Below are positions 2,815 to 52,000 of a stretch of DNA of 64,000 nucleotides, piece after piece. The position numbers and the translations under genes were made by a program. How positions within the stretch are numbered: the stretch's first letter is position 1; each line of letters starts with the position of its first letter. The notes under the pieces are model-generated. The model was not told the DNA's origin and ran no database searches. It saw nothing but the letters and a program-made list of their open reading frames with translations. This stretch comes from Ilex aquifolium (Eukaryota; Streptophyta; Magnoliopsida; Aquifoliales; Aquifoliaceae), in contig OX637409.1 in the NCBI GenBank assembly GCA_951799425.1, positions 20,014,460-20,078,459 of the forward strand. The letters are read 5' to 3'.

Positions 2815-3089
2815 TTTTTTAATGAGTAATACTACTTGAAATTAATTTGCTAACCTAATAACTCATAATTATTAAATTGACAGTGGACCTCAATATTTAT
2901 GAGGACACCGCTACCAATCCAATGATTATGATAAATTAGATTAACAAATTAGATGTAAATAATATTTTCGTTTTTTAATACTCTGGCTAGGATCTGAACT
3001 GGCCGAGTAAAGAGCCAGAAATGGGGGGTAATAGGGCAAATTCTATTGCGAACACAGCAATCATGGAACTTTTCTTGGCATGGGAGGGG

Positions 3090-3721
3090 CATCACCAGCC
3101 TGGTATAGACTGTCATATGCTTTGCCATTAACGTTACGCAACGTCTATCATGCCTTGGATCCCATGACCTCAATTCAAACCTAAATAGATCCTTAGGAAA
3201 AATAAATCGAAAACCATATTAAAATTCTCATCTCACTTATAATTCAATTAAAAGAACCCAACAAAGAAATTGCTTTTTCTCATCTTTTCAATGCTCAAAA
3301 CTAAGGTAAATCCATTGAGATTGTATGGTTACCAGGATAGTAGGAGACCTAAGACTGATTTATTGCCGATTTGACTTTTATTAATCCTCTTTTTTTTTTG
3401 GTTTAACGGCTAATTGACACGCATCTCGACTAATTCCCTCTCTGATCTGGTCAAAGGCAAACCATCTACGTTAGAATTAAGTTATTCATGAGGGATCTTT
3501 ATAGTCTAGCTCAAAGAGGTTACCAAGATTCGAAATTCATGACGTTTGAGTTTACAGTTCTTCTCTATTATCACATTTATAACTCTTGAATTGGTATATT
3601 CTTTTATATCGTGTAGTTTCCCTGGATCGAGCCAAGTATCACAACTTTTTCTACCCATCCTCTTGAATTGGTATATTGTCTGTTTTGTTCCGTGTTTGAA
3701 TTTCACTTGACTATCTACGAC
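3090..3721 (+). repeat. Long direct repeat, copy A, left of the giant MULE
   Basis: About 632 bp, from catcaccagcctggtatag to ctatctacgac, repeated in the same orientation at 14753-15389 with roughly a dozen differences by eye (about 98% identity). Its right end abuts the left terminal inverted repeat of the 3720-14743 element. It contains a minus-strand SINE (3388-3590). No long open frame is convincing here. Confidence 0.9.
3388..3590 (-). mobile_element. SINE copy, second tRNA-derived family (in direct repeat A)
   Basis: On the minus strand the sequence has a degenerate box B region (tttcgaatcttggtaac), the body word ctaacgtagatggtttgcc, then gaattagtcgagatgcgtgt and an A-rich tail at about 3390. 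The same body occurs at 15050-15250, 16745-16915, 21190-21420 and 31135-31320, so it is a dispersed family. Ends are approximate. Confidence 0.65.
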
Positions 3722-3867
3722 CAATGTACAGTGGATTTAAAACTTAATTACCAAAATACAGCCGTTTTGAACATAATTACCATTCTACGGCACTTTTTAA
3801 AAACGGACTCAAGGAATCCGTCTTCTTATGAAAGCGGAATCACGAGATACGAATTCAATGAAAAGCG
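3720..3867 (+). repeat. Left terminal inverted repeat of the giant MULE
   Basis: Matches the reverse complement of 14597-14743 across about 148 bp, including the shared words acagccgttttgaacataat and gaatccgtcttcttatgaaa. A few substitutions separate the arms. Confidence 0.9.
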
Positions 3868-4015
3868 TAATTGGAAAGTCCGAATTCAGAAAGTTTTTAT
3901 TAGTAAAAGCGTATTCCTAAAATCCGTTTTAAACAAAGTAATCGGATGATACAATTACGTTTTCAAACATAAAGCGTAATCTTTAAATCCGCTTTATAAA
4001 ATGAATCGGATATAC
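3868..4015 (+). repeat. Left subterminal short-repeat region
   Basis: Directly inside the left terminal repeat, short words such as aaagcgtaat, aaatccgcttt and aatcggat recur about every 25-35 bp. They match, in more degenerate form, the right-hand array at 14265-14596. Subterminal motif arrays are typical transposase-binding regions in plant DNA transposons; that role here is inference. Confidence 0.65.
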
Positions 4016-4435
4016 CAAACCCACTTTCATTCGAATATACAATCAGGCGCCCTCTCTGTTATTTTCTCTAAACACGTTCATCAGGTCTCTCTCCTCTCTT
4101 CTTCTTCTCTCTTCTCTCTGTGGAAGGCACCTCCTATCTCTTCTCTGTGTGATCACTGTGATGCTTCTTCTTGTCTCATCTAATTTTTCTTTGCTTTGGC
4201 TATCCCCTAAGCTCAGCCCTAACTGAGCGTAGCCCTAAGCTTGTTCGAAGAAGCCAAGTGAAGCCTTCTGCAATATTCGGCTGTGAGATTCGACTGAGGT
4301 ACCTTCTGAGCCCTAATTCCAGGCATGAGATTCTTAATAGGGCCTAGGTTACTCAGTGTTTTGTCAAATGGCACAGTGGACTGGTACACACCCGTGGGCT
4401 AGCTCTGAAGCTAGGAGAAGACAGGGCTTCACGTG

Positions 4436-4625
4436 TTGAACAGGAAGCTTTCTATATCCCCATTGCCCATTCCCCATCCCAAGTTAAGAAATCCCCCCCC
4501 CAAATTCAAGCTCGACAATTTTCCCCATTGCCCATTCACCATCCCAAGTTCAGAAATCCCCAAATTCAAGCTTTCTATATCCCCACTGGCCATTCCCCAT
4601 CCCAAGTTCAGAAATCCCCAATTCA
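4436..4625 (+). repeat. Minisatellite of about 60-75 bp units
   Basis: Three imperfect units share ccattccccatcccaagtt, agaaatccccaaattcaagc and ttctatatcccca. Apparent open frames on both strands here arise from the repeat and are not treated as genes. Confidence 0.75.
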
Positions 4626-6589
4626 ACTCAAAATTTCCATCCTCATTGCCCATATCCTTGAACTGCATCCTTAATTCAGAAAATTACAATGTGAAGGTAA
4701 ATTTAATTTTTTGAATTTTATTCACAATATCCTAGTGTATACTGAATGCTATTTTTGGATTAAATTATGAATATTGTTGTGTGCATTTGGAAAATTGATC
4801 TGTGTTTTGAGTAAATTGTTTTTGGATGTTCTGTTAGAAGTTGTGTTTTCTAGATTTGTTATTGGTGGTTGTGTTTTAAAACTGGGCTTGTGTTTTAAAA
4901 CTGGATGCTTGTTTGTGCTGGATGAGGGGTGGATGTGATGAGATGAATGGTTGTGGTTTAAAAAATGGTTGTGGCGCTTGGAAAAACAGCAGGCATGTTC
5001 TGGTTTAAGTGGTGAACAGGTCTGGAGAAAATGGTGAGAATAAAAATGAAAAAGGTAAGGCAAAACAGTTTAAAAAGTTTTCATTTTTTGGTGATATAAC
5101 AGTAACAATAGTAAGGATGAGTAACAATAACCTAACTTTTCTTCACTTACTGTAAGTCATTGATAAGAATGACTTGTACAAGTGACCGACACAAAATACA
5201 CTACATGATGTTATCTATGGATCATAAGTTGCACCTGTCTAAGGAGTTGCTGCAGTTGTTGAATTAACTGTATCACCTTCTTCTTTTAGGAAACTTGTGC
5301 TATTATGAGTATCCATAGAAAAGCAAAATGGGGAAAATATCACCCATAAGTGGTGTGGCGTTTCTTACAAAAATGGGATGTCAGAAAATTGTATTGATGA
5401 AGAATTTTCATTTGGGGAACAAAGATATTAAGTCATGTTTATTGCTGGAAGTAGTGTGTAGAAGATTGGAACAAAGCTCTATTTTTTTTATTAGTTCTCA
5501 GTAGGTGTAAAGTCTTTATTAGTAGTGTACTCACATTGTCAGCCGAGCTCAAGAATCATAGAGTTTTTCAAATCTCCTGTTGTTTTGATCATTTCTGAAC
5601 TAGGGGTTAGTTTAGTTTTACGAAAATAGTGCATTATTTGGAAAAACTGCGTTTAGCTGTTAATCACAGCGACTGTCCCTACCACCATTGCCTTTGCTAC
5701 CATATCTTAGAGAATTTTTTATATTATTGTAATTGATAGTGTGAATGGGTAAATGACGCCACCTTTCGTGTCCATTGGAAGCTTGCACGATTCTGCCTAT
5801 AATAAGCAATTGCGACTTTCTATTTAGATGATAATAGTAATATCATTGATAGACTGCAAATAGTGCATTATTTGGTAAAAGTCAGGCTACCTTTAACTGT
5901 TTACATGATAACAACAAGTCAGCAAGTGTCCCGAGGATCATGGCAAAGTCTACAGGCCCTGCACTGGCTTTGCTACTATATCTAAGAGGACTTTTGATAT
6001 GGTTACTGCCAATTATATCTGTCTTTGTTGTCTATTTTAGCATTTTATTACATACTTAACTCTGCCATGAGTGCCACTGCCTTAAAAACCAACACCTTCA
6101 CTGTCACCAATGCTAATGGCCACAACCAACATTGTCACCATTACCATTCTTATTATATAGACTTCATTTTATTGATACACACATTCGATAAAGGGTGTGG
6201 TGTAGTGATTGTAAATTTTATTCCCAAGTTAGTTTGATCATATATACTTTATTTAACATTAGTCGGGGCTTATAGGTTTTAATGTTTTATATATTTATTT
6301 AGAGTGTTATTCTTAAGTCTTAATTTTCCAACCATAGAGTTGATATTTCCCATCATGCTATAATTTTGATCCTTCGAAGATAGGAATATGCTATATATGA
6401 TTTTATGAGGGAACACTGTCTGTAGTAATATAAAAATGATGCAGATTTGTAGCTAGCTCTTTCATGTATTCCTCACGTGTACTTGGGTTGTATCCTTCTT
6501 CTGATAGGAACCTTATACGAAATATTATCAATCAGCAAGAAAAATGTTGCTTCAGTTGTTGAATTAACTGTATCACCTCCTCCTTTGAT
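4626..6589. other. Internal non-coding part of the giant MULE
   Basis: AT-rich DNA with no convincing reading frame. Short related segments recur within it: near 5630 and 5855 ('gtgcattatttgg' with nearby 'gtttagctgtta' / 'tttaactgttta'), and near 5250 and 6550 ('cagttgttgaattaactgta'). This suggests internal duplication. Part of it may be the transposase promoter and leader, but no specific element can be supported. Confidence 0.4.
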
Positions 6590-6910
6590 CAGTAGCAGAA
6601 ATCATCTCCAATCCATCACAGCAACTAGGCAGCATGCATCTCCAAACAGCTAAATATGCCTTATACACCCCTACAACACCAATATAGCATAGCTAAACTG
6701 CTTCCAAACCCAAACGCAACCCTTTTTTAGGCAGCAACAGTGGCAGAAAGTCCAGTTCAACAACCATCCTGCAATGCCTTATTTGCCAAACTGTCTGCCA
6801 CAGATTTTGGCTCCCTGAAAATATGTCTTACCTGAAACTCCATCCTACCAACTTGCTCTCTAATTTGAGACATAAACTACCCAGCAGGACGATGCACAAC
6901 CAAAATTCTC
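6590..6910 (-). pseudogene. LINE reverse-transcriptase RNase H-domain remnant
   Basis: Reading the minus strand from about 6895 gives MSQIREQVGRMEFQVRH, then IFREPKSVADSLANKALQDG. The 'REPKSVADSLANKA' word is the hallmark of the C-terminal RNase H (RVT_3-like) domain of plant L1-type LINEs, where it usually reads RExNxVADxLAN. Stop codons interrupt the frame on both sides, so only a decayed fragment remains, nested in the MULE. Confidence 0.7.
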
Positions 6911-7445
6911 TAATTTGAGACATAAACCTAATAGTTTTTTATCTATTTGGTTGAATTAAAAGGAAGTTTTTAACATACTTTAATGTAGGTAATGTGAAAC
7001 TTAGTATAGTTATAGTTTGGAAAACTTTGGTGCTTTTTTGAATCAAACTTGACTGCTTAGAAATTGTTGTAAATGTTAGACGTTAAAAATGAGTATAAGT
7101 CCAAGATAAACACATGACAGTGTATGAACCGGAATATTTTTTTTTTTTGGAATATGTGTTAAAAAATCAACAACGAAATACTCCGCATGAGAGAACAACT
7201 GTAACTATTTATTTGAATATATTTGTTATATAGCTGTGAATTTAACCGGAATATGTAATATGAAATGATTTGCTAACTTATATGTATATTACATCGAATG
7301 AGTATCCACTGTTGGTTTTTCTATGAAATGTTTTAACTTAGTAATGATGTTTATAGGTTTAAAAGTACAAAATGTCACGCAACTTCAACAATGTAGTTTA
7401 AATATAAAAATTTTATGATATCAAATTTTATATTGAAGGTATAAA

Positions 7446-9131
7446 ATGTCGAGGAGACGCGCCACAGTAATGTGCTATTGGGGAGAAAATATTGTATACA
7501 ATGAAGGTTATATATCGTATACTGGAAAGCCTCAACATTGTATAAAGTTAAAACACGGAACAACATATGAGAAATTGTTGACAACCATGTACACAAAAAT
7601 GCAGCTGGACAGTTCAACATCACGACTAAAACTAATCTGTCGTTTCCTGTCATTTTTGGGGGATCGCATGCAACAGTACGTAGAATTTGAAATTACAAAT
7701 GATGACGGTGTGGCGGGGATGTTGAATGCTATATTTGAGAACCAATCATTGAATAGTATTGACTTGTACATACAAGCCGAGAACATCTAACAGTTACCTC
7801 AACCAATGGTCAATGATTATGGTCCATATATCCAATTGCTTACACAACAAAGCGACAATCCATGTCCCAGTGACCAGACATTAGTTAACTCTTACTATGG
7901 TGAAGGGAATACTCAATATGCGCATGAGTTTATGGCTGACGATAACTTTGCAGCAGAGTTTAATTCGGGGCATGGAATTCTTGAAGCTGAGCCGTATGTC
8001 CCAGAATTGCATATAGGGCCTAGTACGCAGACGTCGATATTTTTGGGATACACCACAGGTTCTTCGAATGTTGGTATCCAATCTAATACTGAAACTAGGA
8101 CCGATGTCATTCGCAATCTGGTTCAGTTAGACGTTGATGTGTTGGCGAACAATGGAATGCGTGTCGTTGATCGTGCGGAAGCCATAGACGATGAGGATGA
8201 GGAGATTACATTGATGGCCGATGTTGAAAACATTAATGATGATTGTGACGTACATGGCCCATCAGTTATTGGGGAAGACACTATTCGTATGCATGAGCCA
8301 TCGTTCGCCTACTTCATCAATGATGAACATCCCCAATTGTTTGACCCTAACAATCAAACAAGAGCTCTGTTGTGTGATGCTGATCGGCCTGAGTTAGCCA
8401 TCGGCCTCATCTTCAAGGGTAAAATGGAATTGCAAGATGCAGTGAAAATTTATTCAATTAACAATCATGTCCAATTCGAGGTTGTTGAGAGTGAAAAAAA
8501 GTTACTGGCTGTGCGGTGTAGAAAATACCACACCGGTTGTAAGTGGAGGCTTCGTGCTTGTCAAAAGAAAACGCACGGGATGTTTCAAATTATAAAATAT
8601 GAAGGCCTACACACTTGTCTGCATGTTTCGGCAGCCCAGGACCATGTGCAATTAGATTCACAATTTGTTGCACGCCGAATAAAAGACCTTGTGAGTGGAG
8701 ATCCATCTCTAAAGGTTGTTTTGATAATAAAACACATTGCCACTGTGTATAAGTACAATATATCGTATCGGAAAGCATGGAAAGCAAAACAAACAGCGCT
8801 AGCTATGATTTTTGGTGATTGGGATGAATCATATTCTATTTTACCGAAATTCTTTACTGCACTGCAAAAGTATAACCATGGCATAATAGTCAGATGGCAG
8901 GTGCCCGACCTTGGAAATGGGAAGGCTGAATTCGACAAAGTCTTTTGGGCATTTAAACCGTGTATTGACGGTTTTCGTCACTGTCGTCCAGTTATAAGTA
9001 TCGATGCCACATTCCTGTATGGGAAGTTCAAGGGTAAGCTGTTAATTGCTACGGGTCTCGACGAAAATCATCAGATTTATCCTCTCGCCTTTGCAATAGT
9101 CGATGAGGAAAGCATACATTACAGGACATGA
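7446..9131 (+). pseudogene. MuDR/MULE transposase, one nonsense codon and truncated catalytic domain
   Basis: The frame opens at 7446 (MSRRRATVMCYWGE) with a PB1-like N-terminal domain of about 114 residues, hits TAA at 7788-7790, and continues in the same frame from 7791 to 9131. After an acidic linker come the MuDR DNA-binding domain (GLIFKGKMELQDAVKIYSIN, with CRKYHTGCKWRLRA and GLHTC zinc ligands) and the start of the MULE catalytic domain (VISIDATFLYGKFKGKLLIA, then YPLAFAIVDEES). The first catalytic Asp is present (SIDAT). The frame then stops at 9131 as sequence changes to a PMD gene. The downstream catalytic Asp and Glu and the C-terminal SWIM zinc finger are absent. Such transposases normally cut at the terminal inverted repeats; this copy cannot encode a full enzyme. 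Confidence 0.9.
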
Positions 9132-11554
9132 CACTACTTTCTGGACTCCCCATTGACGGTGACGCAGTAACCGGTGTTGACACATATCGTACCGTACAGG
9201 AATGGCAGGATTACTGTGACATGCATCTAGGCATTAGACCTCCAGCCACTGCTATCTCTGGATCTCGACTCAAGATTACCGCTTTGGCTGCTATTTTAGC
9301 TGAGCCACTCCGAGCAGATGCTGATGTGATCACCATTGATCGATATGCCCGTGCCTACATTTTGCTTCTCATTGGAGCTTACATTTTTTCAGACAAGTCC
9401 ATGAACAAGGTTGGTCTTATGTACTTACAGCATCTTGAGGACCTAGATGCTTCTGGGAGACTAAGTTGGGGTAGTGCTGCGCTAGCATGCTTGTACCGTG
9501 AGATGTGTCGAGCCACTGCCCCAGACACATCCGACATTGGAGGACCGCTACTTATCTTACAGGTATTGTTTCCTGTACATGTAATTATAAGTTACGTTAC
9601 GGTGGAGGACCATTAAAAATTATGTTACATTAAATTGAATAGTTGTGGGCATGGGAGCGGTTTACGCATATCCGGCCAGAGAGAGTACTTCCGCATCAGG
9701 CAGCAGCGGCAGATATACCAGATGCGATTCACGTTCTAAATGGCGATGTTGATGGGATAGCTGCAGAAGTACCCGCTGCTGCTGAGGAGATTGCTGAGCA
9801 ACATGAGCCATTACCTAGGGGACCTTTGGGTTGTAGGTGTGTAATGTAGAATTACAAGTTGGTCGTACTTAATTAATTTGTAAGCATTGATAGAAATGAA
9901 ATGTTTTTATTTCCAGGTGGAATGTGCGTATGACATCTTACGTACACAGCCCTAGACACGTCCTCAGACATTACAGAGATCAGCTGGACCAGATGCGCGA
10001 TGAGCAGGTTGTAACTGTACACAAACGTCGCGTACAATATAATGCCAAATACAATATAATGCAAAACAAGTTTAAACTAAAATTTATATTACATTTTTTT
10101 TTTTGTAGATGGTGTGGATGTCATATACTGCAGATGTCTTAGCAGACTTACCAGATTACTGCATTGTTGGGAGCGATGTATGGATGACGCGGGCCCCACT
10201 AATATGCTTTCCAGTTATAGAGTGGCTTTTTCCTGATCGTGTCATGCGACAGTTCGGATTGCGACAGGACATACCTGAGTCATGCGATACTGGCTCTGCT
10301 CTGCATGCTACTGATCGTCGCGGCAGGGGTGGTTATGACTAGAGACTTGTCCATCAGTCTTGTGTCGATGTCTGGCTCCATCGGCGAGATCATGTCATTG
10401 TGGGGGAGGCACCTGCATCTGTGACTGATTTGGGTATTCGCACGTACATGGATTGGTATGGCCGTATCACTCGACGATTGATCGGACCACCATTGGATAG
10501 GCCACGTATTGGATTTCAGCCTATGGCTAGCATTGTCGAGATATTGGTAAGCTAATAGCTAACTGCAATTGTCATTATAAGCATTATTTACATTTACAGA
10601 TATGTTATTGTGCTAATGTAACTGTTATTTACATTTACAGGAGCATACACTTGAACAGGTTCACCAGATAGCAGAAGATGCCCTTAAGGATGGTACAGAC
10701 GCAACACATGTACAGGCACTACGGGCCACTCAATCACTTACCTCCACTTGTCTCGAGGCGGTTCGAGAAGACCATCGTCTCCATAGTACCGTCCAACCCC
10801 AGCCTCCACCTATACCCCATACTGCACCACGTGCACCAGCTGATGTACCTACGCGGCCTCAAGGTATTGTTATACGACGACCCAGACCTACACGTCACCG
10901 ACCAGAAGTACGTGTAGATGTCGGTCTCGACACAGTACCTGACACGAGTGTACCAGAGCCTACAGCAGCACCCAGTGGACCTCATCATCCACATACACCG
11001 TCCAGATTACGTGTAGAGCCACTGTCCACGTCGAGTCTCCCCCATACATCACCACATACTGCACCCCATCCACCACCATTGACCGATACATCCGTGTCAT
11101 CTGAGTATACCGCAGAGCATGTTTCACTTTTGCCAAGAGCAGACACATACACACCAGGTGGGTCAGGAGTTACATTGCCCAGCCATCCTATCAGTCACGA
11201 TGCATTGGTGACATCACCACCGACACATGTGCATACTTCACAGCCAGTAGATGATGTCTCGCAGGCTGATGTTGCGACTCCGTCAGGTGTACATAGGTCA
11301 CATCATCGAGCTACGACTCCACTTGCCCATATTATTTCACTAGTTCGAGGTCGAGGTGGTCGATTTCAAGGTGTTAGAGGTCGGGGTGGTAGAGGACGGG
11401 TGGTCGAGGCATAGGCAGAGGCAGAGGCAGTGGCGGAGGCGGAGATACTATTCCAGTCGTAGATCCGGTCTCACAGGTCATTGATGGGGATCCTTCACAT
11501 TTAGAAGCACAGCGGCCGAAACGGCTGAGGAAGAAGCCGTCTTGTGGGACTTAG
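9112..11554 (+). pseudogene. Plant mobile domain (PMD, MAIN-like) gene, 5'-truncated, two lesions
   Basis: Five exons fit GT-AG splicing: ~9112-9562, 9643-9836, 9917-10007, 10109-10546, 10641-11554. PMD motifs in order are TLQDMTLLSGLPIDGDAV, GSAALACLYREMCRA, LWAWERFTHIRPER, PDYCIVGSDVW, LICFPVIEWLFPDRVMRQFG and ALHATDRRGRGG. The Pro/Thr-rich tail ends in an Arg/Gly region and RPKRLRKKPSCGT, a usual MAIN-like C-terminus. Lesions: TAG at 10340-10342, where relatives have Trp, and a one-base deletion near 11395-11402 that shifts the frame before the true stop at 11552-11554. The PMD N-terminus is missing because the gene is joined directly to the transposase. PMD proteins of host type (MAIN, MAIL1) act in transposon silencing and genome stability; versions carried on MULE and Ty3/gypsy elements are known. 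Confidence 0.88.
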
Positions 11555-12032
11555 TTTTATTATGTTGTATCATTTTTTGAATTCTATTTTCACATGTATG
11601 TAAATTTAGTAGTTTGTATCTATCATTGTTGGTTGTTTGGGTGGAGTGTTTCTGGTTGTGCAATTCACTGTTTGTGATGGTGGTGGTGGTGGTTGTGGTG
11701 CGTATGATATTGTGGTTGACTTTGTTGTTATATTGATATTGTGCATTACATGACAATTTTTATTGTGGTATGACTGAGATTTAAGGGAAACTCTGCCAAA
11801 ATTTTTTAAAAATTCCTATATTTTCTATTGTTCAACACTTCAATTGTTATGATAACATAATATAAAGAACAATACAATATTTTTTAGAACTACACATTGA
11901 CAGTACACCTAAACTAGAACAACACAATACTACAAACATATACGCATGTCTATAACAAACGACACACATTATTAAAAGCCAATGAGGATAATCAAACATA
12001 TGCATAACTGGATATTCATGAATGCATCTTCA
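11555..12032. other. Spacer between PMD gene and the minus-strand ORF
   Basis: AT-rich, with a GGT/GTT-rich patch at about 11620-11700. It lies between the convergent 3' ends of the PMD gene and the minus-strand frame and probably holds both transcript ends. Nothing else is recognised. Confidence 0.4.
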
Positions 12033-12470
12033 TCATGAGAAATTTTCTTCATCCGACATTTCAACGTCCGAAACACATCCTGTTTCCGTTGACAGCTGTA
12101 AGCACAAACGTGCTTCGTCAATCAAACCTTCTGCAGCACGGTTGCCTGCGATGCGGCGGAGGTTGTACCGAGATTGACGTATTGTCATACGGTTGTTTTC
12201 ACCTCGCATACGCCACAATGCAGCTTCCAACTTTTCTGGTGTGTCAATGGGCATATTAATGGCAATTTCTCGCGGCCTCCTTATGTTGGAAATGCGTAAA
12301 TCTTCACTTAGAACTTGTCTCTCATTCAAACGATATTGTCATTCCTCCCTCATTCTTATCACTGACCTCTGTGAGAAACGTAAACGAGAATTTACTGGAT
12401 AGAAGAATTCATCCTCTAACACCCAATGATAACCCATACTTTCAAACACCATGCGTGGACTGTAACTCAT
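12033..12470 (-). pseudogene. Unrecognised element-borne ORF with one in-frame stop
   Basis: From ATG at 12470 the frame runs 145 codons to the stop at 12033, broken only by TGA at 12341-12339 (codon 44; one transition from CGA, Arg). The first part reads MSYSPRMVFESMGYHWVLED and the rest is Arg-rich (RMTIRQSRYNLRRIAGNRAA) ending in an acidic tail (SDVEMSDEENFS). I do not recognise a family. The basic middle and acidic end would suit a nucleic-acid or chromatin contact, but that is speculation. It converges on the PMD gene and diverges from the 13125 frame. Confidence 0.5.
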
Positions 12471-12689
12471 GCTTGCACTTGGTAAGTATATATGTGAATA
12501 GAGCAACACAAACAATGAATTTATAGTGTTATTCTAACGGTAGTCTTGGTCATTGTTTTGCCAACTTTGGAAAAAAAATGATGATTTAGTTAAATTTGCA
12601 ACAGTTTTGATTTGTCCCATCACTGAACGTTGCACATCACTATCAGTGTTAAGTCGTCAGTTATGATTTCACAAAACACTGATTTAACG

Positions 12690-13025
12690 TACTAACAGTG
12701 TTATGTCATCAGTGCCTGATTTGTCAGAACACTGTATCATTATCTAGTCACTATCATTGTTTACTTCTCAATGTATGTAGACTAAATATTATACACAACA
12801 CTATTAGTACGTTAGTATCAGTGTTATGTCATCAGCGTCTGATTTTTCAGAACACTGTATCATTGTCTCGTCGCTATCTCAATTAATGAACACTAAAATA
12901 ATTTACACAACACTGTTAGTACGTTGGTATCAGTGTTATGTTATCAAACGACTCATTTATCACAACACTGTTTCATTGTCTAGTCGTTATCATTGTTTAT
13001 CTCTCAATGTATGTTCACTCCAATA
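12690..13025 (+). repeat. Tandem array of ~110-125 bp units between divergent ORFs
   Basis: The word cagtgttatgtcatcag recurs at about 12696, 12819 and 12931, followed each time by 'cagaacactgtatcattgtc' or a close variant and 'tctcaatgtatg'. A degenerate unit precedes at about 12620. The array lies in the shared upstream region of the frames at 12470 (minus) and 13125 (plus). Confidence 0.85.
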
Positions 13026-13124
13026 TTTTATTACTCAGTTCAATTACTTCAATATTTAAATAAGTTACATTTATGTTTGCATACAGATACATAACTGCAG
13101 TGTAAACCCTACATACCCACACCA

Positions 13125-13778
13125 ATGTCATCAACAATTGGGTCTCCAAGCCAAACAAACGATGACTCATTCCCAATCAACCACTGTCATCATGAGACAT
13201 TTTCTTCATTCAATTCACCCGAACCCGGTAATTACACAGATCCCCATGGAGTAACATGGTATGGAAATTTGTGTTTCTTTAAGAATGAACCAATCAACAT
13301 TCATAACTCATTTACTGAAGTCGGTCATGTGATGATTGGACCTGCAACCTTTGTTCCGCCTCTAGAGTTTTATTATCACCTACCGGGGCCAAGTTGGTTG
13401 AAATCTTATTTCAAGCGCTGTGAGCTTGAAGTATACTGTCGTTGGCATGGATTACGAGTGCTACAGACACGTTCAGCTGAAATGTATGTGGAATGGTGCA
13501 CGGATAACTACAATGATATAAATGAAAGACTAGCTCTTGAGAATGATCAGATGGAACGACGTCTACATCGATTCCACCTTATTACAAAAGCAAAGATTGA
13601 ACATTCACACCCTGAAGACACTATTAATACAATACTGTCTGATCCATCATTGACATCTGACAATGAACTTTCTGATTTTGAAGATTCAACTGATGATGAT
13701 CATTATGAAAAATTTCTCCCTGCTAGTCTATGCATACATGGCACATCACTATGCTGTCGGAAATATGATTGTCGTTAG
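13125..13778 (+). CDS. Unrecognised 217-residue protein encoded by the giant MULE
   Basis: An intact single-exon frame. Residues 1-60 are Ser/Asn/His-rich. The middle (residues ~45-145) is Trp/Tyr/Phe-rich and looks globular (TWYGNLCFFKNEPINIHNS, EFYYHLPGPSWLKSYFKR, CRWHGLRVLQTRSAEMYVEW). Next is a charged, probably helical stretch (ALENDQMERRLHRFHLITKA), then an acidic Ser/Asp tail and a Cys-containing end (GTSLCCRKYDCR). No signal peptide or membrane segment is seen. I do not recognise the family. It lies inside the inverted repeats downstream of the PMD gene and diverges from the 12470 frame, so it may be an accessory MULE gene. Intactness over 217 codons next to broken genes argues for recent function, but chance persistence is possible. 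Confidence 0.55.
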   Translation: MSSTIGSPSQTNDDSFPINHCHHETFSSFNSPEPGNYTDPHGVTWYGNLCFFKNEPINIHNSFTEVGHVMIGPATFVPPLEFYYHLPGPSWLKSYFKRCELEVYCRWHGLRVLQTRSAEMYVEWCTDNYNDINERLALENDQMERRLHRFHLITKAKIEHSHPEDTINTILSDPSLTSDNELSDFEDSTDDDHYEKFLPASLCIHGTSLCCRKYDCR

Positions 13779-14264
13779 ACATATTCTAACTAATATGTCA
13801 GTATTCTGTCGTTTTAAATAAAATCTTACAGTTACATTTCAATTTCAATAGAAGACTTAAATAAATTTCACTTTGAATTTTTTTTGAAATGTTTTATCGC
13901 AAAAAAAAAAAAAAAATCTCTTTCCCCCATAATTAGGGTTTCTTGCTTGGGTTTAGGGGGTACGATTTGTATTCTCTTTTTTTTTGGGATGGGTGATTAG
14001 GGAGGGATGGGTACGATGGGTATCCTATTTGTAAATTAAAAAACGTGCACTAAATAGTTTTATTAATTTTTGTTTTTAATATGGGAAGGTAAGGACATTT
14101 TTCTCTTGTGGGGCTACTACGTAGACATAGTTACACTCGTGTTATATTATTTTTTAATTTTGTTCTGTATACAAAATAAATAGTCTCAAGCGGTAGTTAT
14201 CTCATTTTTGGGACTTTTTTTTTTCATATTGACAGCACCATATCAACGGATGTATGCTAAATAA

Positions 14265-14596
14265 ATATGTCTTCAAGAATTCGGATTCAAGACATCCGCT
14301 TTCATTGAAAAGCGGTACTGTTAAATCCGCTTTTAGTAAAAAGCGGTACTACCAATTCCGCTTTTCAATGAAAGCAGATTTATTGATTCCGATTTTAATG
14401 GGCCACACACTGCTTAAATTGGGTACAGAGAATTGCGCCTACATAAGAAAGCGGACTCTGTGATTCCGCTTTATCAATGAATTCGGATTCTGTGATTCCG
14501 CTTTTTCAGTGAAATTGGGTACAGAGAATTGCGCCTACATAAGAATTCGGACTCTGTGATTCCGCTTTATCAGTGAATTCGGACTCTGTGATTCCG
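14265..14596 (+). repeat. Right subterminal array of ATTCCGCTTT-type motifs
   Basis: At least ten short words of the form gattccgctttt or its complement aaaagcgga recur, and a unit of about 70 bp (gggtacagagaattgcgcct, then gcggactctgtgattccgct) is present twice. The array ends at the right terminal inverted repeat. Such arrays commonly bind transposase in CACTA and MULE elements; binding here is inferred. Confidence 0.85.
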
Positions 14597-14743
14597 CTTT
14601 TTCGATGAATTCGTATCTCGTGATTCCGCTTTCATAAGAAGACGGATTCCTTAAGTCCGCTTTTAAAAAGTGTCGTAGATTGGTAATTATGTTCAAAACG
14701 GCTGTATTTTAGTAATTAAGTTTTAAATCTACTGTACATTGGT
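14597..14743 (-). repeat. Right terminal inverted repeat of the giant MULE
   Basis: Reverse complement of 3720-3867 with a handful of substitutions; ends with ctgtacattggt. The flanking taatagactc does not match the nine bases left of the element, so no clean MULE target duplication is visible. Confidence 0.9.
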
Positions 14744-14752
14744 AATAGACTC

Positions 14753-15389
14753 CATCACCAGCCTGGTATAGAATGTCATATGCTTTGCCATTAACGTTAC
14801 GCAACGTCTATCATGCCTTGGATCCCATGACCTCAATTCAAACCTAAATAGATCCTTAGGAAAAACAAATCGAAAACCATATTAAAATTCTCATCTCACT
14901 TATAATTCAATTAAAAAAAGAACCCAACAAAGAAATTGCTTTTTCTCATCTTTTCAATGCTCAAAACTAAGGTAAATCCATTGAGATTGTATGGTTACCA
15001 GGATAGTAGGAGACCTAAGACTGATTTATTGCCGATTTGACTTTTTATTAATCCTCTTTTTTTTTTTGGTTTAACGGCTAATTGACGCGCACCTCGACTA
15101 ATTCCCTCTCTGATCTGGTCAAAGGCAAACCATCTACGTTAGAATTAACTTATTCATGAGGGATCCTTATAGTCTAGCTCTAAGAGGTTACCAAGATTCG
15201 AAATTCATGACGTTTGAGTTTACAGTTCTTCTCTATTATCACATTTATAACTCTTGAATTGGTATATTCTTTTATATCGTGTAGTTTCCCTAGATCGAGC
15301 CAAGTATCACAACTTTTTCTACCCATCCTCTTGAATTGGTATATTGTCTGTTTTGTTCCTTGTTTGAATTTCACTTGACTATCTACGAC
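14753..15389 (+). repeat. Long direct repeat, copy B, right of the giant MULE
   Basis: Same orientation as 3090-3721. Differences from copy A are single substitutions and small length changes in homopolymers (for example 'aattaaaaaaagaaccc' against 'aattaaaagaaccc'). Beyond 15389 the sequence continues as unique DNA (tctattgtgtgtgttcgg). Confidence 0.9.
15050..15250 (-). mobile_element. SINE copy, second family (in direct repeat B)
   Basis: The partner of the SINE at 3388-3590; it shares the body word gaattagtcgaggtgcgcgt on the minus strand and the adjoining A-rich tail. It was duplicated together with the surrounding direct repeat rather than inserted independently. Confidence 0.65.
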
Positions 15390-16914: not shown

Positions 16915-17525
16915 GAGTAATGCTAGATTGACCAAAATTAGGGACCAAAATTAAGGACCAAATGACATGGCAGTCTAATCAGCATTCTAAACCAGCTGTC
17001 ATGTCATTTAATAAAAAGATTAATATTTGGGCCAAAACCTTTTCAACTTTTCCACTGCCACCGTCAATACCCACCTTCCTCTCTCTCTCTTTCTCTTCGC
17101 ACTGTGACCTCTTTCTCTCTACACTCCCTGCTATTGTACGCCTCCGACAAAGTGGCGACAGGCTTCTTCTTCGCCGGTAAGAAAGAGTTGAACCCAATGA
17201 CTAAATCATCATACCCATCAAACAGCTTCTTCACAGTTGAACATCTTGGGAAGACGTGATTCAGCGTAGCATTACTCCTGGGTGGTTTTCTTCTTTGGCA
17301 GAGAAGAAAGAAAGGGGAGGGCAGAGACTAGAGGACGTAAGCAAGAGAGAGAGAGAGAGAGGAAGGTGGGTATTGACGGTGGAAGTGGGGAAGTTGAAAA
17401 GGTTTTGGCTCAAATATTAATCTTTTTATTAAATGACATGACAGCTGATTTGGAATGCTGATTAGGTTGCAATGTCATTTGGTCCATAATTTTGGTTTCT
17501 ATTTTTTGTCAGCCTAGCATTACTC
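16915..17525. mobile_element. Foldback MITE, 611 bp, probably MULE-type
   Basis: The two halves are nearly complementary: gagtaatgctag at the left pairs with ctagcattactc at the right, and the inner arms pair through agattaatatttgggccaaa / ggctcaaatattaatctttt and through gtcaatacccaccttcctct / ggaaggtgggtattgac. The flanks atccaagca (16906-16914) and atccaagtg (17526-17534) look like a 9 bp target duplication with two changes, which suits a Mutator-type MITE. It has no coding capacity. Confidence 0.8.
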
Positions 17526-31320: not shown

Positions 31321-32339
31321 AAAATTAACCTAATGTTGTAAGCGGCCCATGGGCCAATTCGTTTCAAGGTTTCAGAAATGCATCAATTTTAACTTCTAAT
31401 GGTGTTCGAGAGAGATTGCTTTATTTATGTAATTTAAACTGACGATGGTGTGAGAAATTTCCTCTTTAAACGGATGATGGTGGGAGAAAATGATAGACCT
31501 CAAGGTTGTTCGGTGTCAATCGGGGGGAAACAATCGACTAAGTGTTCAGGTAGAGGTGGCAATCATATCGTATCGGGTCATTTCGGGTTTGTGTTTGTCT
31601 ATTTAGTTTCGTGTCATGTTCATGTTGATTCATATAATTTATAAATAAAAAATTTAACGCTCAATTTTATGTCTAAAATTTCACTATCACTTAATCGAGC
31701 AAATGCTCATATTTTTTTCATAAACTAAAAATTAACTTAATCAATATAATAATAAAAATATCTTTTTTTGTACAATAATTAGATCACTACTTGATAAAAT
31801 ATAATAAAAATGAGTAAAAAATATCTTTCTTTTTTTTTCGAGAAATGACCAACTCTAACCCACTAATTTCGTATCCATTTCAAATCGTGTTTTTGTGTTA
31901 TGTCAGAAATTATCACCTCTAATCCAAAGTGCGAAAATGAGCAGTCTAGAAAATATTTGCGGGTTACTTTAGACGTGTGTTTGGGTAGGTGGGATTTCAA
32001 GAGAAGAATGTCTAATTTGGTTTGTGTATTTTTTAGGCGAAACTTGTAGGACTGATGCATCTTGCAACAAACATGTCTTCAATCATTCTAAGTAAGGATT
32101 AAAAATTCGTTTTAAAACAACGAAAAGATCTTCATTTTCAAAGAGATCGAAATAAATCAGTGATAGAATCAAAATTTTAATATTTCGATGTGTTTCGTAA
32201 TATTAAAATACTAGTTATTACCCGTATCTGAAGGCACGAAGTAATAAAAAAATGGTTAACAATAAACATACTTAAATTCACACCAAAAATCAAATCACAA
32301 ATATAGATGAGAGAGAAATAAATTTAAGCACCGGTTATA
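31321..32339. other. Intergenic DNA
   Basis: AT-rich and without a supported gene. A short G/C-balanced segment at 31450-31620 is open on the plus strand for 64 codons but shows no domain. Confidence 0.4.
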
Positions 32340-33256
32340 GTGGGGCTAAGCGTTGGTAGTAGTGGTGGGCGGTAGTGATGGTAGTGGAAGACGGTGATGG
32401 TTTTGGTGGGTGGCAACGACCATGATGATGGTGGCAGTCGTGGGTGGCAATGGTGGTGGTGGGTTTGGGGAGATGATGGTGGTAGTGATAGTTATGGGTA
32501 ACTGCGGTGGTGGTGGTGGGCAACGATAGTGGTGGTGGGGCGACGACGGTGGTTGTGGGCGACAGTGTGATAGGTGGTGGTAGTATGTGTGGTGGGGATG
32601 AGTGACAGTGGGTGGCGGCAGTGGTGGACGATGATGGGTGGTTAATAGTGGTAGGTGTGGTGAGGGTGAGTGACAGTAGGTGACGGCGATGGTGGACGAT
32701 AACTAGTGGTGGTGGGTTATGGTAGTAGGTGGTGGTGGGTGTTGACGGTGGTAATGGTAATAAATATAAGAATGAGATTACGATGATGGTGGGTGGTGGC
32801 GGTGGACGACGGTGGTAGCAATCGGTGGAGGGTGGTGATGGTGTTGGAAGTGGCGACAACGACGGTGGTGGTGGTAGTGGTGATGGTCTTGGGGGGGGGG
32901 GGGGTGGGATGGTAGGGGTGATGGTGGGACAGTGACGGTGGTGGTAAGGTGGCGGTGGTCGTGGTAGGGGTGATGGTGGGACAGTGATGGTGTTGGTAGG
33001 GTGGCGACAGCGATGGGGATATTAGTGGTGGTAGAGTTGCGGCAGCGATGGTGGGACAATAGGGGTAGTGGTAGTGCTAATGGTGGTGGTGGGGCGATTG
33101 TGGTGATTGTGATGGGTGTGATGGTGATGGTGGGGTAGCTACAGTGGTGGTGGTGGTGGGATGGCGACGGTGGTGGGTAGTGGTGATGGTGATGGTGGGG
33201 CGGTGGGGGATAGTTGTGTTGGTGGGGTGACGGTGGTAGTGGTGGTAGTGGGACGG
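32340..33256 (+). repeat. 0.9 kb GGT/GAT-rich low-complexity tract
   Basis: The plus strand is almost all G, T and A in short words (ggtggtgg, gtagtgg, gatggtg), with C nearly confined to cgacgg- and ggcgg-type words. The minus-strand frames are Pro/His/Thr/Ser-only in composition, overlap in different frames and lack any domain, so they are artefacts. Runs of GG at short spacing give high G-quadruplex potential. A G12-type run occurs near 32890. Confidence 0.9.
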
Positions 33257-35592
33257 GTCCAAACACAATTTTTAATTTTTTTTTAAAGTATTTATGAGAA
33301 GTTATAAGTTTTAAAAATGCTTTTAAAAAATCACTCCAAATACAACCTTATAAACTTATTTTGCCTATTAAATTTGGGGTGTTAATATTAGCCATCGGAT
33401 TAATTTTAAAATAAAATTTAAAGAAATATCAACCACGAAAAGCAAAAGTCATTTTGTTTATCTTTTAAGATTTGAATTGTATTATACTTTATTATATAGA
33501 TATTTACACAATTGTTTTGAAATATTTCAGAGTGTGTCAAGATGCATTGGTATATTTCGATCAATATTTTAAAAAAATAATTCTCAAATTTTTTATCCGT
33601 TTTTCATTATATTTTCAAAACAAATCAAAATAATTTCAAAACAGGTCTTAACATTTTTATTTTCTAAGTGACTAAAACGAAATTTTCATCTTTAATTACA
33701 ATATTTGTTTGTTGCTATTCAAAATATGCTACATGGGTCCAATTCAAAATGTGAAGTAGGGTATGGTAGTAAATTTTTTATATAACACAGTCCGTAACAC
33801 GACACCGACCTTACCTAAAAATATTGCGATTAATTGATATTGTAATGAATGGGTTAGGTCAATTTTATGATACGAATAACCTGATTTTGACAAGCTAAAT
33901 TTATGTAATAGCAACTCCAACCAAAATCTCAAATGGCAAATGGAGTTTTCAACAATAATATTTGATAGTAGTTTTATCTCCGACCAATATGTCGAATATC
34001 TAGTTGACAATAGGCTAAATTTGACATATCAATTTTGATATGTCAAATCTTTTACAAAGTATTATTTTATTGATCATAAAAGTTTTTAATGCATGGACCC
34101 CCACTAGATGTAGTCATTTATGGCAAAAGTTGCCAAACAAAATTTATAGGCGTTGGGCATGCATGGACCACCACTATAAAACTATCTATTGTGCTAGTAA
34201 ATTTTAAACTTTTTTGAATATAATCAATTTATTTTGCCCCTTTTTTTGTTTTTTATTTCTTTTCTCAATCACACAATAGATTTCCAATACTCTCAATTTT
34301 TTGATTTTTCAATACAACAATCGCAATTTTCTGGTGAAATCTGAAATCACTGATATATCGGTTAGAGTACTAATGAGGTGAATATATTATATTTTACATG
34401 TCAAAATGTCACATAAGTCTTCAAATCCAAATTTGACATCTCAATTTCAACATCTCCATTTGGAGATTCCCTAATTGACATTAGAATTTCAGTAACTAGG
34501 CAAATAGCATTGATCAGATTGAATAGAAAGACTGTGTGGAATATAAGGATTTGAATTTTTATTGAAGATGGTCTTAGACCGAGCTTATCCTTTACTTATA
34601 GATGGAATACGAGCCGGTTTGGATATAATTGGATTTGACTTATCTTTTTATCTTTATCCATTTTTTTTTATAGAGTATGGACTTTTTAATTTGTTTCAAT
34701 TTGGGTTCTTATTTCTGAAACCATGTTCTTTTAATGTAAAAAGAATGTTTGTAAGATACATTTTATTTATTTATTTTTATTGAATTCATTGAAATTATAA
34801 TCTATAAGATAAAAAAATAACAGGAAAAAAGTTAAGAATAAATTCAAAAAACCGATTTAGATAATTTGATTTGTTTATAGAAAATCAATTAGGAAAAAAA
34901 ATGTATGATATTCCATTAATAATAAGACGATGAATAGAGTAAGATCAAAATTAATTATGTATCATACAAATAAAAATAAGGGAGAATCAAACCGAAGACC
35001 TTCATGTAACATGTAGAGTCACTCACCCAATGAGATAGAATTGGAATCCTCGTACCCACACTTCAAAATCCCCATAAAACTATTTCCTATCTTGTGGTTT
35101 TTTTTTAATTACATGGTGTCCAGACTTGTACCGACTATTCTCTCGAGTTTAGCGATTGACCACTGTGATTTGAGTTGGTCTAGAAAATGTCTCCAAATGA
35201 ACAAGAATGACTAGCCCTTAGGAAATATGAAAAAAAATTGAATTTAAGATCTTTAAATTATTAAATAACAGACACAACTACTAAAGGATTGGCCATCAAC
35301 CACCTCTAAAGATTTATATGGTGGTTCTTTTATAGATTCTTAATGTATATCTATTTTTTTGGGAAATTTGGAGGTCGATTCCTCTATAAGGACTTATTTG
35401 GACTTAAGTCCGTAAAAAAAAATTATTTTTTATGAAGTTCATTTTTTGTCAATTTTACTAGACTATCCATTCCTTTAGAAGTAAAATAAAACTAAAAATT
35501 AAAAACTCCTAAATTTTAGAAGTTTGACTAATATTAAAACAAAAATTCTCTCATATCTATCTATATTCATATAAAGGTTAGGATTATATATC

Positions 35593-50170: not shown

Positions 50171-52000
50171 GAGCAACTCCAAGGGGCTATCTAAACCAAA
50201 CCTTTTAGCTATTTTAGATAGCCTCACCTTAAAACATCACTCCAACGGACTAGCTAAAGCCCTATCTATTTCCCATAGCCCATTTTTCGCTCGCTACGCG
50301 TAGCTAGCCAGTCACGCTCGCCTCTTGCTGCCTCTCTCCTTGCTGCCTCGCTCCGCCTCTCTCCTTGCTGCCTCTCTCCTTCATCGATCGATTTCTCTCC
50401 ATCCTTCATCGATCAGACCACCAGATTTCTCCAGACCACCATCGATCGAACTTAATCTCAGACCGATTTCTCCAGACCAGAGGCACACAGAGGCAGCAAT
50501 CGACCACCAGACCACCATCGATCCTTGGGTTCAGACCACCATCGATCCTTGGGTTCTCCTCTTTCTCCTTGGGTTCAGACCACCATCGATCGATCAGACC
50601 ACCATTGCTCGAATCCAGAGTATATGCATATATATTCTGACACTTTCTCCCTCCACACCCCATTCTCCCTTTCTCTGTTTTCTCCCATATGTGATCTGGG
50701 TATTTTGAGATTGGACCATTTCTGGGATTTCTTGCTGGTGATTGTGTTGGTATGTTTCAGTTATTCAAATTTTGATGAATTTTGGTGCTTTGTGACTTGA
50801 AGATTAATGGGTTTCGGTTTATGGAATTGGTTTGATGTTGGTTTGATTAATGAATTGGTTTGATATTGAATGGTTTGAAGATTAATGAATTGGTTTGATA
50901 TTGAATGGGTTTCGGTTTATGGAATTGGTTTGATTAATGAATTGGTTTGATATTGAATGGTTTGAAGATTAATGAATTGGTTTGATATTGAATGGGTTTC
51001 GGTTTATGGAATTGGTTTGATATTGGTTTGATTAATGAATTGGTTTGATATTGAATGGTTTGAAGATTAATGAATTGGTTTGATATTGAATGGGTTTCGG
51101 TTTATGTTTCAGTTATGGAATTGATGACATTATTAATAGGTTCTGATCATGTTTTCTGATATTGAATGGGTTTCGGTTGGGAACCTAGCTGAGTATGAAC
51201 CACTTTGCTTCACAAATAGGTTCTGATCATTGCAAATAGCTGAGTATGCACCTGTTGTAGTCCTAGAAAACCAGGCTGCTGTGGAATATGAAAACGGAAG
51301 GATAGAAAATGAAATTCTGATAGATTGTGACTGGCCAACAGTCCACTGACCAACTGAGTATGCATCTTTTTCTATAAAATAGCTGAGTATGCATCTTTTT
51401 CTATTGCTTCACTGACCAGTAAAGAGTAAGAATGCTGACCTTTGTCTGTGTTTGAATTTTCTAGGTGAACATACCATCTAGCCTCTTTCCTTCCATTGAT
51501 CTTACTTACATTGAGGACAAGTACTCGGGCCTCTCAACACAAGCCCTTTTGAATGCACATAACCTGTTATTTTCTTTTGGTTGGTTGGAGAAAGGAGGGG
51601 TGGTGGTATATGAGCTTGTTACATTTGAACTGAATTTATCCCATAGTAGGTGAAGATATGCAGTTGCATTCTCAATTGTTTTTAACTTGATAGAAATTAT
51701 GCACTGAATTTCTCACCATAGGAAGTCACTTTGATAGGGCAACACTTCAAGAACATACTGTCCATAGTTATGTGGCGTAAACACGTCATCATGTGTTGTC
51801 ATCGATATGGTAATAACATGGTATACTACATAATATTTTATATTTTAATAATTAAGAGTTAGTTGAAGTTAGTTGAAGTGGTTAGCTAAAATAGATAGCG
51901 TTGTTGGAGTGAGTTTGAAAAAGTGGGTAGCTAAAGTAGATAATGGAATAAAAAAATATATTTTGGCTAGCTAGTTTAGATAGCCTCCTTGGAGTTGCTC
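50171..52000. mobile_element. PIF/Harbinger-like non-autonomous element, 1.83 kb
   Basis: The inverted ends are gagcaactccaaggggctat and tagcctccttggagttgctc, flanked by TAA on both sides (50168-50170 and 52001-52003), the usual three-base PIF/Harbinger target duplication. The interior begins with a gene-like CT-rich leader full of 'cagaccaccatcgatc' repeats, then a tandem array (50810-51110), then a 62-codon frame (51465-51653: NIPSSLFPSIDLTYIEDKYS). No transposase is present. The interior may hold captured host sequence. Confidence 0.8.
50810..51110 (+). repeat. Tandem array in the Harbinger-like element
   Basis: The phrases gaattggtttgatattgaat, gggtttcggtttatgg and tttgaagattaat are reshuffled in higher-order repeats of about 110 bp. 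Confidence 0.85.

Follow-up and report, generated by a model that had tools for sequence, protein, structure and literature searches.

A defective Mutator-like element in Ilex aquifolium and its lineage of gene-carrying elements with a PMD gene, three small accessory genes, and palindromic subterminal arrays

The element at the Ilex aquifolium locus

The window analyzed here, a stretch of 64,000 nucleotides of the Ilex aquifolium genome (assembly GCA_951799425.1, contig OX637409.1, positions 20,014,460 to 20,078,459 of the forward strand), contains at positions 3720–14752 a defective copy of a Mutator-like element (MULE), in which remnants of a transposase and a PMD gene and two small accessory genes lie between long terminal inverted repeats (TIRs). 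An original prediction, made from the letters of the window without database searches, had placed an 11 kb MULE at 3720–14743. The coordinates of all features are collected in Table 1.

The inverted ends of approximately 150 bp postulated in that prediction were confirmed by the alignment of 3714–3864 with 14599–14749, which extends over 151 nt with 93% complementarity. The predicted left limit of the element was correct, whereas comparison with sister copies moved the right limit to 14752. The ends of the family start, according to the same comparison, with GA(G/A)TCTATTACC, and the first 9 bp are missing from the left end in the window.

The assignment of the transposase to the MuDR type was confirmed by a MuDR DNA-binding domain (PF03108) and a MULE domain (PF10551), but the gene is not intact: a stop interrupts it, and its MULE domain ends after 41 of 99 positions. 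No zinc finger was matched by Pfam in the transposase of the window copy. The PMD gene indeed has five exons (approximately 9117–9562, 9643–9836, 9917–10007, 10109–10546, and 10641–11411) which join in frame with GT–AG borders; the exceptions are a stop in exon 4 (10340–10342) and the loss of the frame after 11411, and the gene is truncated at its N-terminus. Within the element, the exons match the PMD profile PF10536 at 48–181 and 240–298, starting only at position 48 of 347, and the relative C4c matches it at 1–181 and 240–347. A deletion of approximately 2.25 kb removed the C-terminus of the transposase, the small gene ORFe, and the N-terminus of PMD, and fused the truncated transposase to the truncated PMD. 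The predicted divergent pair of open reading frames (ORFs), here called ORFc and ORFd, and the predicted subterminal arrays, with 16 palindrome-like units, were both found. An intact autonomous element at this locus is ruled out by the stops and the truncated MULE and PMD domains, and the loss of function of this copy is best explained by the internal deletion together with the stops.

Table 1. Features of the MULE copy and its flanks; positions refer to the window.
Feature	Position	Strand	Remarks
Left copy of the 632-bp flanking duplication	3089..3720	+	First bases CATCACCAGC, presumably the original target duplication of 10 bp
Left TIR	3720..3864	+	Without the outermost GAGTCTATT
Left subterminal array	3800..4027	+	Six palindrome-like units AAAGCGG-11-CCGCTTT with 1–3 mismatches; overlaps the inverted repeat
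Transposase remnant	7446..9116	+	N-terminal domain, stop at 7788–7790, DBD_Tnp_Mut, MULE domain positions 1–41 of 99
Internal deletion junction	9110..9122	.	~2.25 kb missing near 9116 relative to copy C20
PMD gene, N-terminally truncated	9117..11411	+	Five exons
ORFc, small accessory protein	12033..12470	-	Premature TGA at 12339–12341
Repeats between the divergent ORFc and ORFd	12634..13019	.	Contain the motif CAGTGT(2-4)GTCA
ORFd, 217-aa accessory protein	13125..13778	+	Open frame in the window copy
Right subterminal array	14278..14663	+	Ten palindrome-like units with 0–3 mismatches, mostly 31–32 bp apart
Right TIR	14599..14752	-	Complete; terminal bases AATAGACTC at 14744–14752
Right copy of the flanking duplication	14753..15389	+	Original downstream flank

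Flanks of the window copy

The 9-bp target duplication anticipated in the original prediction was not present at the window copy; a direct repeat of 632 bp flanks the element instead. Its two copies align over 632 columns with 16 mismatches and 5 gap columns. The right copy opens with CATCACCAGC, which directly abuts the complete right end of the element, and the identical ten bases open the left copy. Sister copies possess 10-bp target duplications, 10 bp being the length in the best-preserved ones. An interpretation of the repeats as resembling long terminal repeats was rejected, as they represent host flank starting at the presumed target duplication.

The 632-bp repeat is best explained by an aberrant repair event after a break at the left end of the element, templated via the 10-bp target duplication. 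The element would have been inserted in the ordinary way and broken later at its left end; the broken flank would then have invaded the right-hand copy via its 10-bp duplication, approximately 620 bp of the right flank would have been copied, and the rejoining to the element, with 9 bp lost, would have occurred through a two-base match (shared AC). It is unlikely that the element landed at the boundary between the units of a tandem duplication that was already there, or that the insertion itself generated a very long target duplication, even though an element placed between two repeats is the layout that a long target duplication is expected to leave. The complete right TIR is followed without a gap by the CATCACCAGC that opens the right repeat, which fits the 10-bp length of target duplications in the family; from the left TIR precisely the outer 9 bp are missing, and the joint runs through the short shared AC. 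Copying from the right-hand target duplication accounts for all three observations.

Related elements in the host genome

A search of the 800-Mb host genome with the left end, proposed in the original prediction, gave 42 places (40 of 370 candidates scored), many of them as facing pairs. Both ends are present in 10 of the 12 loci of the window family, the window included. Target duplications could be scored by script in seven of the 12 loci, and matched at 10/10 bases in three, 9/10 in two, and 8/10 in two; at random places of the window the chance of a match at all but one of the bases or better is 0.0005. The two elements read from outer subfamilies, A18 and C4c, are flanked by perfect 9- and 10-bp target duplications. 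Duplications in the 8–11 bp range of MULEs thus accompany the family and both outer elements, but not the window copy. Across these subfamilies the ends of the elements are GA(G/A)TCTATTACC or GAGCTTTTCCCC, next to target duplications of 9–10 bp.

Close relatives with the full layout (C20, C5, C13, and C4a) are about 13.2–14.1 kb long and have the small gene ORFe, lost from the window copy, between the transposase and PMD; stops or frame breaks are present in them. Other size forms of 4.2 kb, 9.3 kb, 10 kb, and 19.9 kb (C3a) occur in the family, the 4.2-kb copy C3b having both ends, ORFc, and ORFd without a match to transposase or PMD. Copy C12 encodes an open transposase of 901 amino acids with PF10551 covered at 1–99 of 99, PF03108 (DBD_Tnp_Mut), SWIM, and a zf-CCHC_2 zinc knuckle, so that the DDE domain, the MuDR DNA-binding domain, and the zinc finger of the MULE superfamily are found together in this relative; ORFe and the first PMD exons are missing from the stretch of C12 that was read.

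The transposase frames of A18 and C4c are open over 903 and 921 residues, respectively, and are followed in both by PMD, ORFc (reverse), ORFe, and ORFd. Identity to the window family amounts to 45–46% for the transposase, 53% for the N-terminal exon of PMD, 59% for PMD exon 4 (C4c only), 60% for ORFc, 62% for ORFe, and 49–51% for ORFd. The PMD match in A18 is confined to the N-terminal exon, and the C4c frames entered in the substitution analysis described below contain no stops. In a further subfamily, represented by L042, ORFc and ORFe are present, and no ORFd match was found within the 5.5 kb read.

Altogether, these results show a lineage of several subfamilies whose full members consist of a transposase, PMD, ORFc, ORFe, and ORFd with subterminal arrays of dyad sites. 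The family of large gene-carrying MULEs put forward in the original prediction is supported by the recurrence of this gene set and its linkage in the host genome. Further copies, for which a search had been suggested, were recovered with the recurrent gene set among the full-layout copies and the outer subfamilies; the window copy itself is defective, with neither an intact transposase nor a short target duplication. Cargo genes without the ends, or ends around unrelated interiors, had been named as outcomes that would speak against the prediction, and the search for them did not refute the family reading.

Two further observations concern the family. A palindromic double element of 17.6 kb, with the ends outermost, lies at C16:17070812-17088461 (loci L015 and L016), and each of its inverted half-copies contains parts of the transposase, PMD, ORFc, and ORFd. 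Groups of equal or near-equal scores with open frames were seen on C18, C20, C9, C12, and C14 for ORFd and on C2, C7, and C15 for ORFc, which suggests recently amplified subfamilies.

Linkage and selection of the cargo genes

Linkage was counted on the best 50 of 2388 candidates for the transposase, the best 150 of 690 for ORFd, and the best 150 of 774 for ORFc. With 55 transposase rows merged into 50 loci and 86 of the 150 listed ORFd rows used, a same-strand ORFd was found downstream within 20 kb in 48 of the 50 loci, and in 39 of these at a distance of 5.3–8.0 kb. An opposite-strand ORFc lies within 6 kb of 99 of the 150 listed ORFd, against approximately 0.17 expected by chance, and all 99 pairs are divergent. 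Conversely, 69 of the first 71 ORFc rows have a listed ORFd partner. The remaining 51 listed ORFd are without a partner among the ORFc places listed, which may reflect either real loss or an ORFc outside the best 150.

The ratio of nonsynonymous to synonymous substitution rates (dN/dS) was calculated for copies in which over 70% of the query was matched. ORFc and ORFe matches below 45% identity and pairs with infinite dS were dropped, stop codons were skipped, and C3a and C4b were treated separately from the close family. In comparisons of the close family with the outer subfamilies, mean dN/dS was 0.31 for ORFd, 0.31 for ORFc, 0.20 for ORFe, and 0.15 for PMD exon 4, values which cover these four genes and not the transposase or the N-terminal exon of PMD, and for which synonymous sites are near saturation (mean dS 0.9–2.0). 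Within the close family, decaying copies included, it was 0.42 for ORFd, 0.60 for ORFc, 1.0 for ORFe, 0.40 for PMD exon 4, and 0.46 for the transposase.

These data bear on the possibility that a single MULE acquired PMD and the two frames as fragments of host genes. MULEs do capture host sequence frequently (PMC6446971, in the part consulted), but here the gene set recurs over subfamilies down to 45% transposase identity, dN/dS between subfamilies is below 1, and linkage was seen at 48 of 50 transposase loci (with ORFd) and at 99 of 150 ORFd places (with ORFc). Chance capture, being extremely improbable, was rejected on these grounds of recurrence, dN/dS below 1, and gene linkage.

The accessory proteins

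ORFc and ORFe are paralogues with 28–37% identity. A profile comparison of ORFc/e with ORFd gave a probability of 90 and P of 1.7e-6 over 91 columns, based on shallow alignments, and the two groups have in common an ENxxM core and a C-terminal SDxxxSD tail. For a relative of ORFc, the structure model shows a helical hairpin, with a mean predicted local distance difference test (pLDDT) score of 74, and the model of ORFd, with a mean pLDDT of 52, has a similar order of helices. Judged by these shallow alignments, ORFc, ORFe, and ORFd are probably mutual paralogues of common origin. In the protein collection searched, three relatives were found for ORFd and 24 for ORFc/ORFe, all on contigs of approximately 0.5–2.5 kb without gene context, and a scan of viral contigs for ORFc relatives returned 11 pattern matches and no relative.

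A motif of the form CAGTGT(2-4)GTCA was noticed mainly between the accessory genes. It occurs 2–6 times per outer locus (A18, C4c, L041, and L042) versus 0–0.1 times in shuffled sequence, and 1–3 times in ten of the twelve window-family loci, C3a and C4b having none; CAGTGT alone is only mildly enriched. The motif may be a shared promoter signal.

The subterminal palindrome arrays

The array unit of the window family, AAAGCGG-11-CCGCTTT, is found mostly close to the ends of the elements with the units mostly 31–32 bp apart. Under a rule of at most 3 mismatches in 14 bases, the 16 units of the window element contrast with a single one in the window segment 20001–60000. The half-site TCCGCTTT is present in all 12 window-family loci, including two for which a single end was read, at 3–25 per locus, with means of 0.05–0.40 in shuffled sequence, and all 39 convergent pairs within 40 nt have a spacing of 11. 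In an alignment of 185 distinct sites anchored on the half-site, conservation was 0.81 in the opposite arm, 0.59 in the spacer, and 0.52–0.55 in the flanks. Genome-wide, AAAGCGGA-TCCGCTTT with a spacing of 0–25 was found 232 times and its reversed control 4 times; of 50 listed sites, 46 are equal in length.

The outer subfamilies have a different palindrome. Their half-site AATGACGTTT occurs 18 times in A18, 13 times in C4c, and not at all in the 12 window-family loci. A18 and C4c together contain 19 pairs of ACGTCATT/AATGACGT at a spacing of 3 and 13 more at 30 or 36, reaching the next unit. The full site AAAACGTCA-7-TGACGTTTT was found at 1179 places in the genome, versus 0 for the reversed control, and when the spacing was allowed to vary from 0 to 25 it was exactly 7 in 1179 of 1211 sites; this palindrome type is absent from the window. 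Its seven-base core differs between the elements read, and the first and last bases of the core are complementary in 35 of the first 50 listed sites (shuffled mean 19.3; 0 of 5000 shuffles attained 35). The same pairing of core edges was seen in 21 of 34 distinct cores (shuffled mean 12.7; 7 of 5000 shuffles attained 21).

The observed/expected ratio of CpG is 1.45 in the right array of the window and 2.26 in that of A18, versus 0.66 and 0.72 in the element interiors, figures that represent one array per type and a richness to which the motifs themselves contribute. A listed ORFd lies no more than 5 kb from 11 of the first 50 window-type sites listed; these sites also include 10 pairs, spaced 0.6–4.5 kb, without a listed ORFd in that range. 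Both counts were made against an abridged version of the ORFd list. From the positions of the sites, these pairs suggest short derivatives which would keep only the ends and need the arrays in cis.

Possible readers of the arrays

Fixed spacing and the paired change at the half-site edge are the traces expected from a dimeric reader, and ORFc, ORFe, and ORFd are the best candidates for it, because they are conserved, linked, and not otherwise explained. With confidence that stands about evenly balanced, we propose that the window holds a defective copy of a gene-set MULE lineage whose palindromes are bound, in dimeric form, by protein that the element itself encodes. One or more proteins, most likely of the ORFc/ORFe/ORFd group, with or without PMD, would act as the binder; the bound dimer would mark the ends as the element's own, support the transposase, and protect the CG-rich ends from silencing, and PMD would connect these ends with chromatin. 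The accessory proteins and PMD may in this manner influence silencing or mobility. VANC in VANDAL elements and TnpA in Spm provide precedents for such a use of arrays.

A more elaborate and only tentative form of this proposal is a self-recognition code, in which three paralogous dimerizing proteins, perhaps as heterodimers, read a rigid palindrome with a half-site edge coordinated by subfamily and, together with PMD, keep only the element's own ends open and mobile. As part of the same joint claim, such self-recognition would constitute a Mutator-class system of anti-silencing and mobilization separate from VANC of the Arabidopsis VANDAL elements.

Several observations weigh against dimeric binding by the accessory proteins. 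ORFc, ORFe, and ORFd gave no Pfam match above the cut-off (the best stray E value was 0.019) and nothing significant against solved structures in sequence and Foldseek searches, which leaves DNA binding without support from homology. The model obtained for ORFd is of poor quality, the alignments behind the profile match are as shallow as stated, and ORFe is without constraint not only within the close family but also between A18 and C4c (dN/dS 0.92). ORFd cannot be a universal reader, because the L042 subfamily has arrays without an ORFd match in the 5.5 kb read. Covariation is absent between positions 2 and 6 and between positions 3 and 5 of the 7-nt core in the first 50 outer-type sites listed, of which only 6 have a listed ORFc or ORFd within 15 kb (random expectation 0.28). 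The arrays spread through tandem copying, so that their sites are not independent, and the contribution of the motifs to CpG richness has to be discounted. Finally, the transposase itself could be the palindrome binder.

In that last case the transposase would bind the arrays, and ORFc, ORFe, ORFd, and PMD would be cofactors of transposition without a role in silencing, a possibility we consider somewhat unlikely. The overlap of the left array with the TIR agrees with it, and the array pairs without a listed ORFd nearby suggest that non-autonomous copies need the arrays in cis. There is also a precedent in mudrB of MuDR, whose protein is apparently needed for integration according to the part of PMC6446971 that deals with it. 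However, three conserved extra proteins beside PMD exceed the one or two ORFs given per plant group in Table 1 of that paper, and the CpG richness of the arrays suggests, without proof, low methylation.

A quite improbable alternative is that the arrays recruit host transcription factors, the element borrowing host activators and the accessory proteins having an unrelated role. TGACGT is the core of plant TGA-bZIP sites, and the half-sites ACGTCA/TGACGT are common to the outer subfamilies read. The window family, however, has another half-site, AAAGCGG, with another fixed spacing, and the outer core varies from one subfamily to another while its edge changes in a coordinated way, a pattern that a diversifying reader specific to the element explains better than an invariant host factor does.

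Other features of the window

Outside the element, a fold-back of 611 bp at 16915–17525, with arms of 183 nt and 91% complementarity, is probably a short non-autonomous element. A strong excess of G over C (skew of 0.50 over 2 kb) was seen at 32001–34000, and short tandem arrays lie at 50838–51106 (periods of 35–98 bases) and 53352–53538 (periods of 54–81 bases).

Relation to known systems and significance

As far as the descriptions consulted go, maize MuDR (mudrA, mudrB) resembles the lineage in its MuDR-type transposase with an accessory gene, its TIRs, and its target duplications of 8–11 bp. MuDR TIRs start with GAG, which is a further likeness. Compared with MuDR, the lineage described here has more accessory genes, PMD, and subterminal arrays.

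PMD is widespread in plant MULEs (groups 42 and 45–50 in Table 1 of PMC6446971), and the lineage is like these in combining a transposase with SWIM and/or CCHC finger, TIRs, target duplications of 8–11 bp, and PMD, as listed there. Group 42 is entered in the table with 'unknown ORF and PMD (antisens)'. The passages of PMC5418596 on this domain describe PMD-C members fused to MULE transposases, whereas here PMD is a separate gene in transposase orientation. They also present the host PMD proteins MAIN and MAIL1 as acting in silencing and already suggest an anti-silencing use of captured PMD in MULEs; MAIN and MAIL1 act in addition in the expression of genes with a promoter motif (PMC7156037, in part). 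Three small proteins and palindromic subterminal arrays distinguish the present elements, neither being mentioned for PMD MULEs in the passages concerned of PMC6446971 and PMC5418596.

The excerpts on VANC describe its binding to subfamily-specific arrays, which leads to a loss of methylation (PMC5735166, PMC10398659). VANDAL elements, as portrayed there, are likewise Mutator-like, with accessory proteins and subfamily-specific arrays of short motifs in non-coding DNA, as is the case here. The VANC21 motif, however, has nine bases in one orientation and lies in introns and upstream regions, whereas rigid palindromes close to both ends form the present sites. The TIRs of VANDAL elements are degenerate, whereas those found here are long and well conserved, and no VANC-like protein was identified here, no search aimed at one having been made. 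An analogy, and no more than that, exists with the CACTA elements En/Spm and Tgmt*, which have subterminal repeats with a motif differing between subfamilies (PMC2613891, in part). TnpA recognizes these repeats, which are cis-determinants of transposition (the same source), and its activation correlates with demethylation (PMC10398659, in part). CACTA elements belong to another superfamily with 3-bp target duplications, and neither CACTA termini nor such duplications were found here.

In open-licence full-text literature we found no description of the ORFc/ORFe/ORFd set or of the palindromic arrays. PMD-bearing MULEs are thus already known, and the set of proteins together with the palindromic arrays appears to be new.

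This lineage gives concrete form to the question of what purpose PMD genes have in MULEs, with proteins under selection and a defined DNA site. More than 1000 copies of such a site in one genome, arranged by subfamily, make binding, self-recognition, and silencing directly testable. Beside VANC, the lineage may represent a second case of a transposon regulator co-evolving with its own sites.

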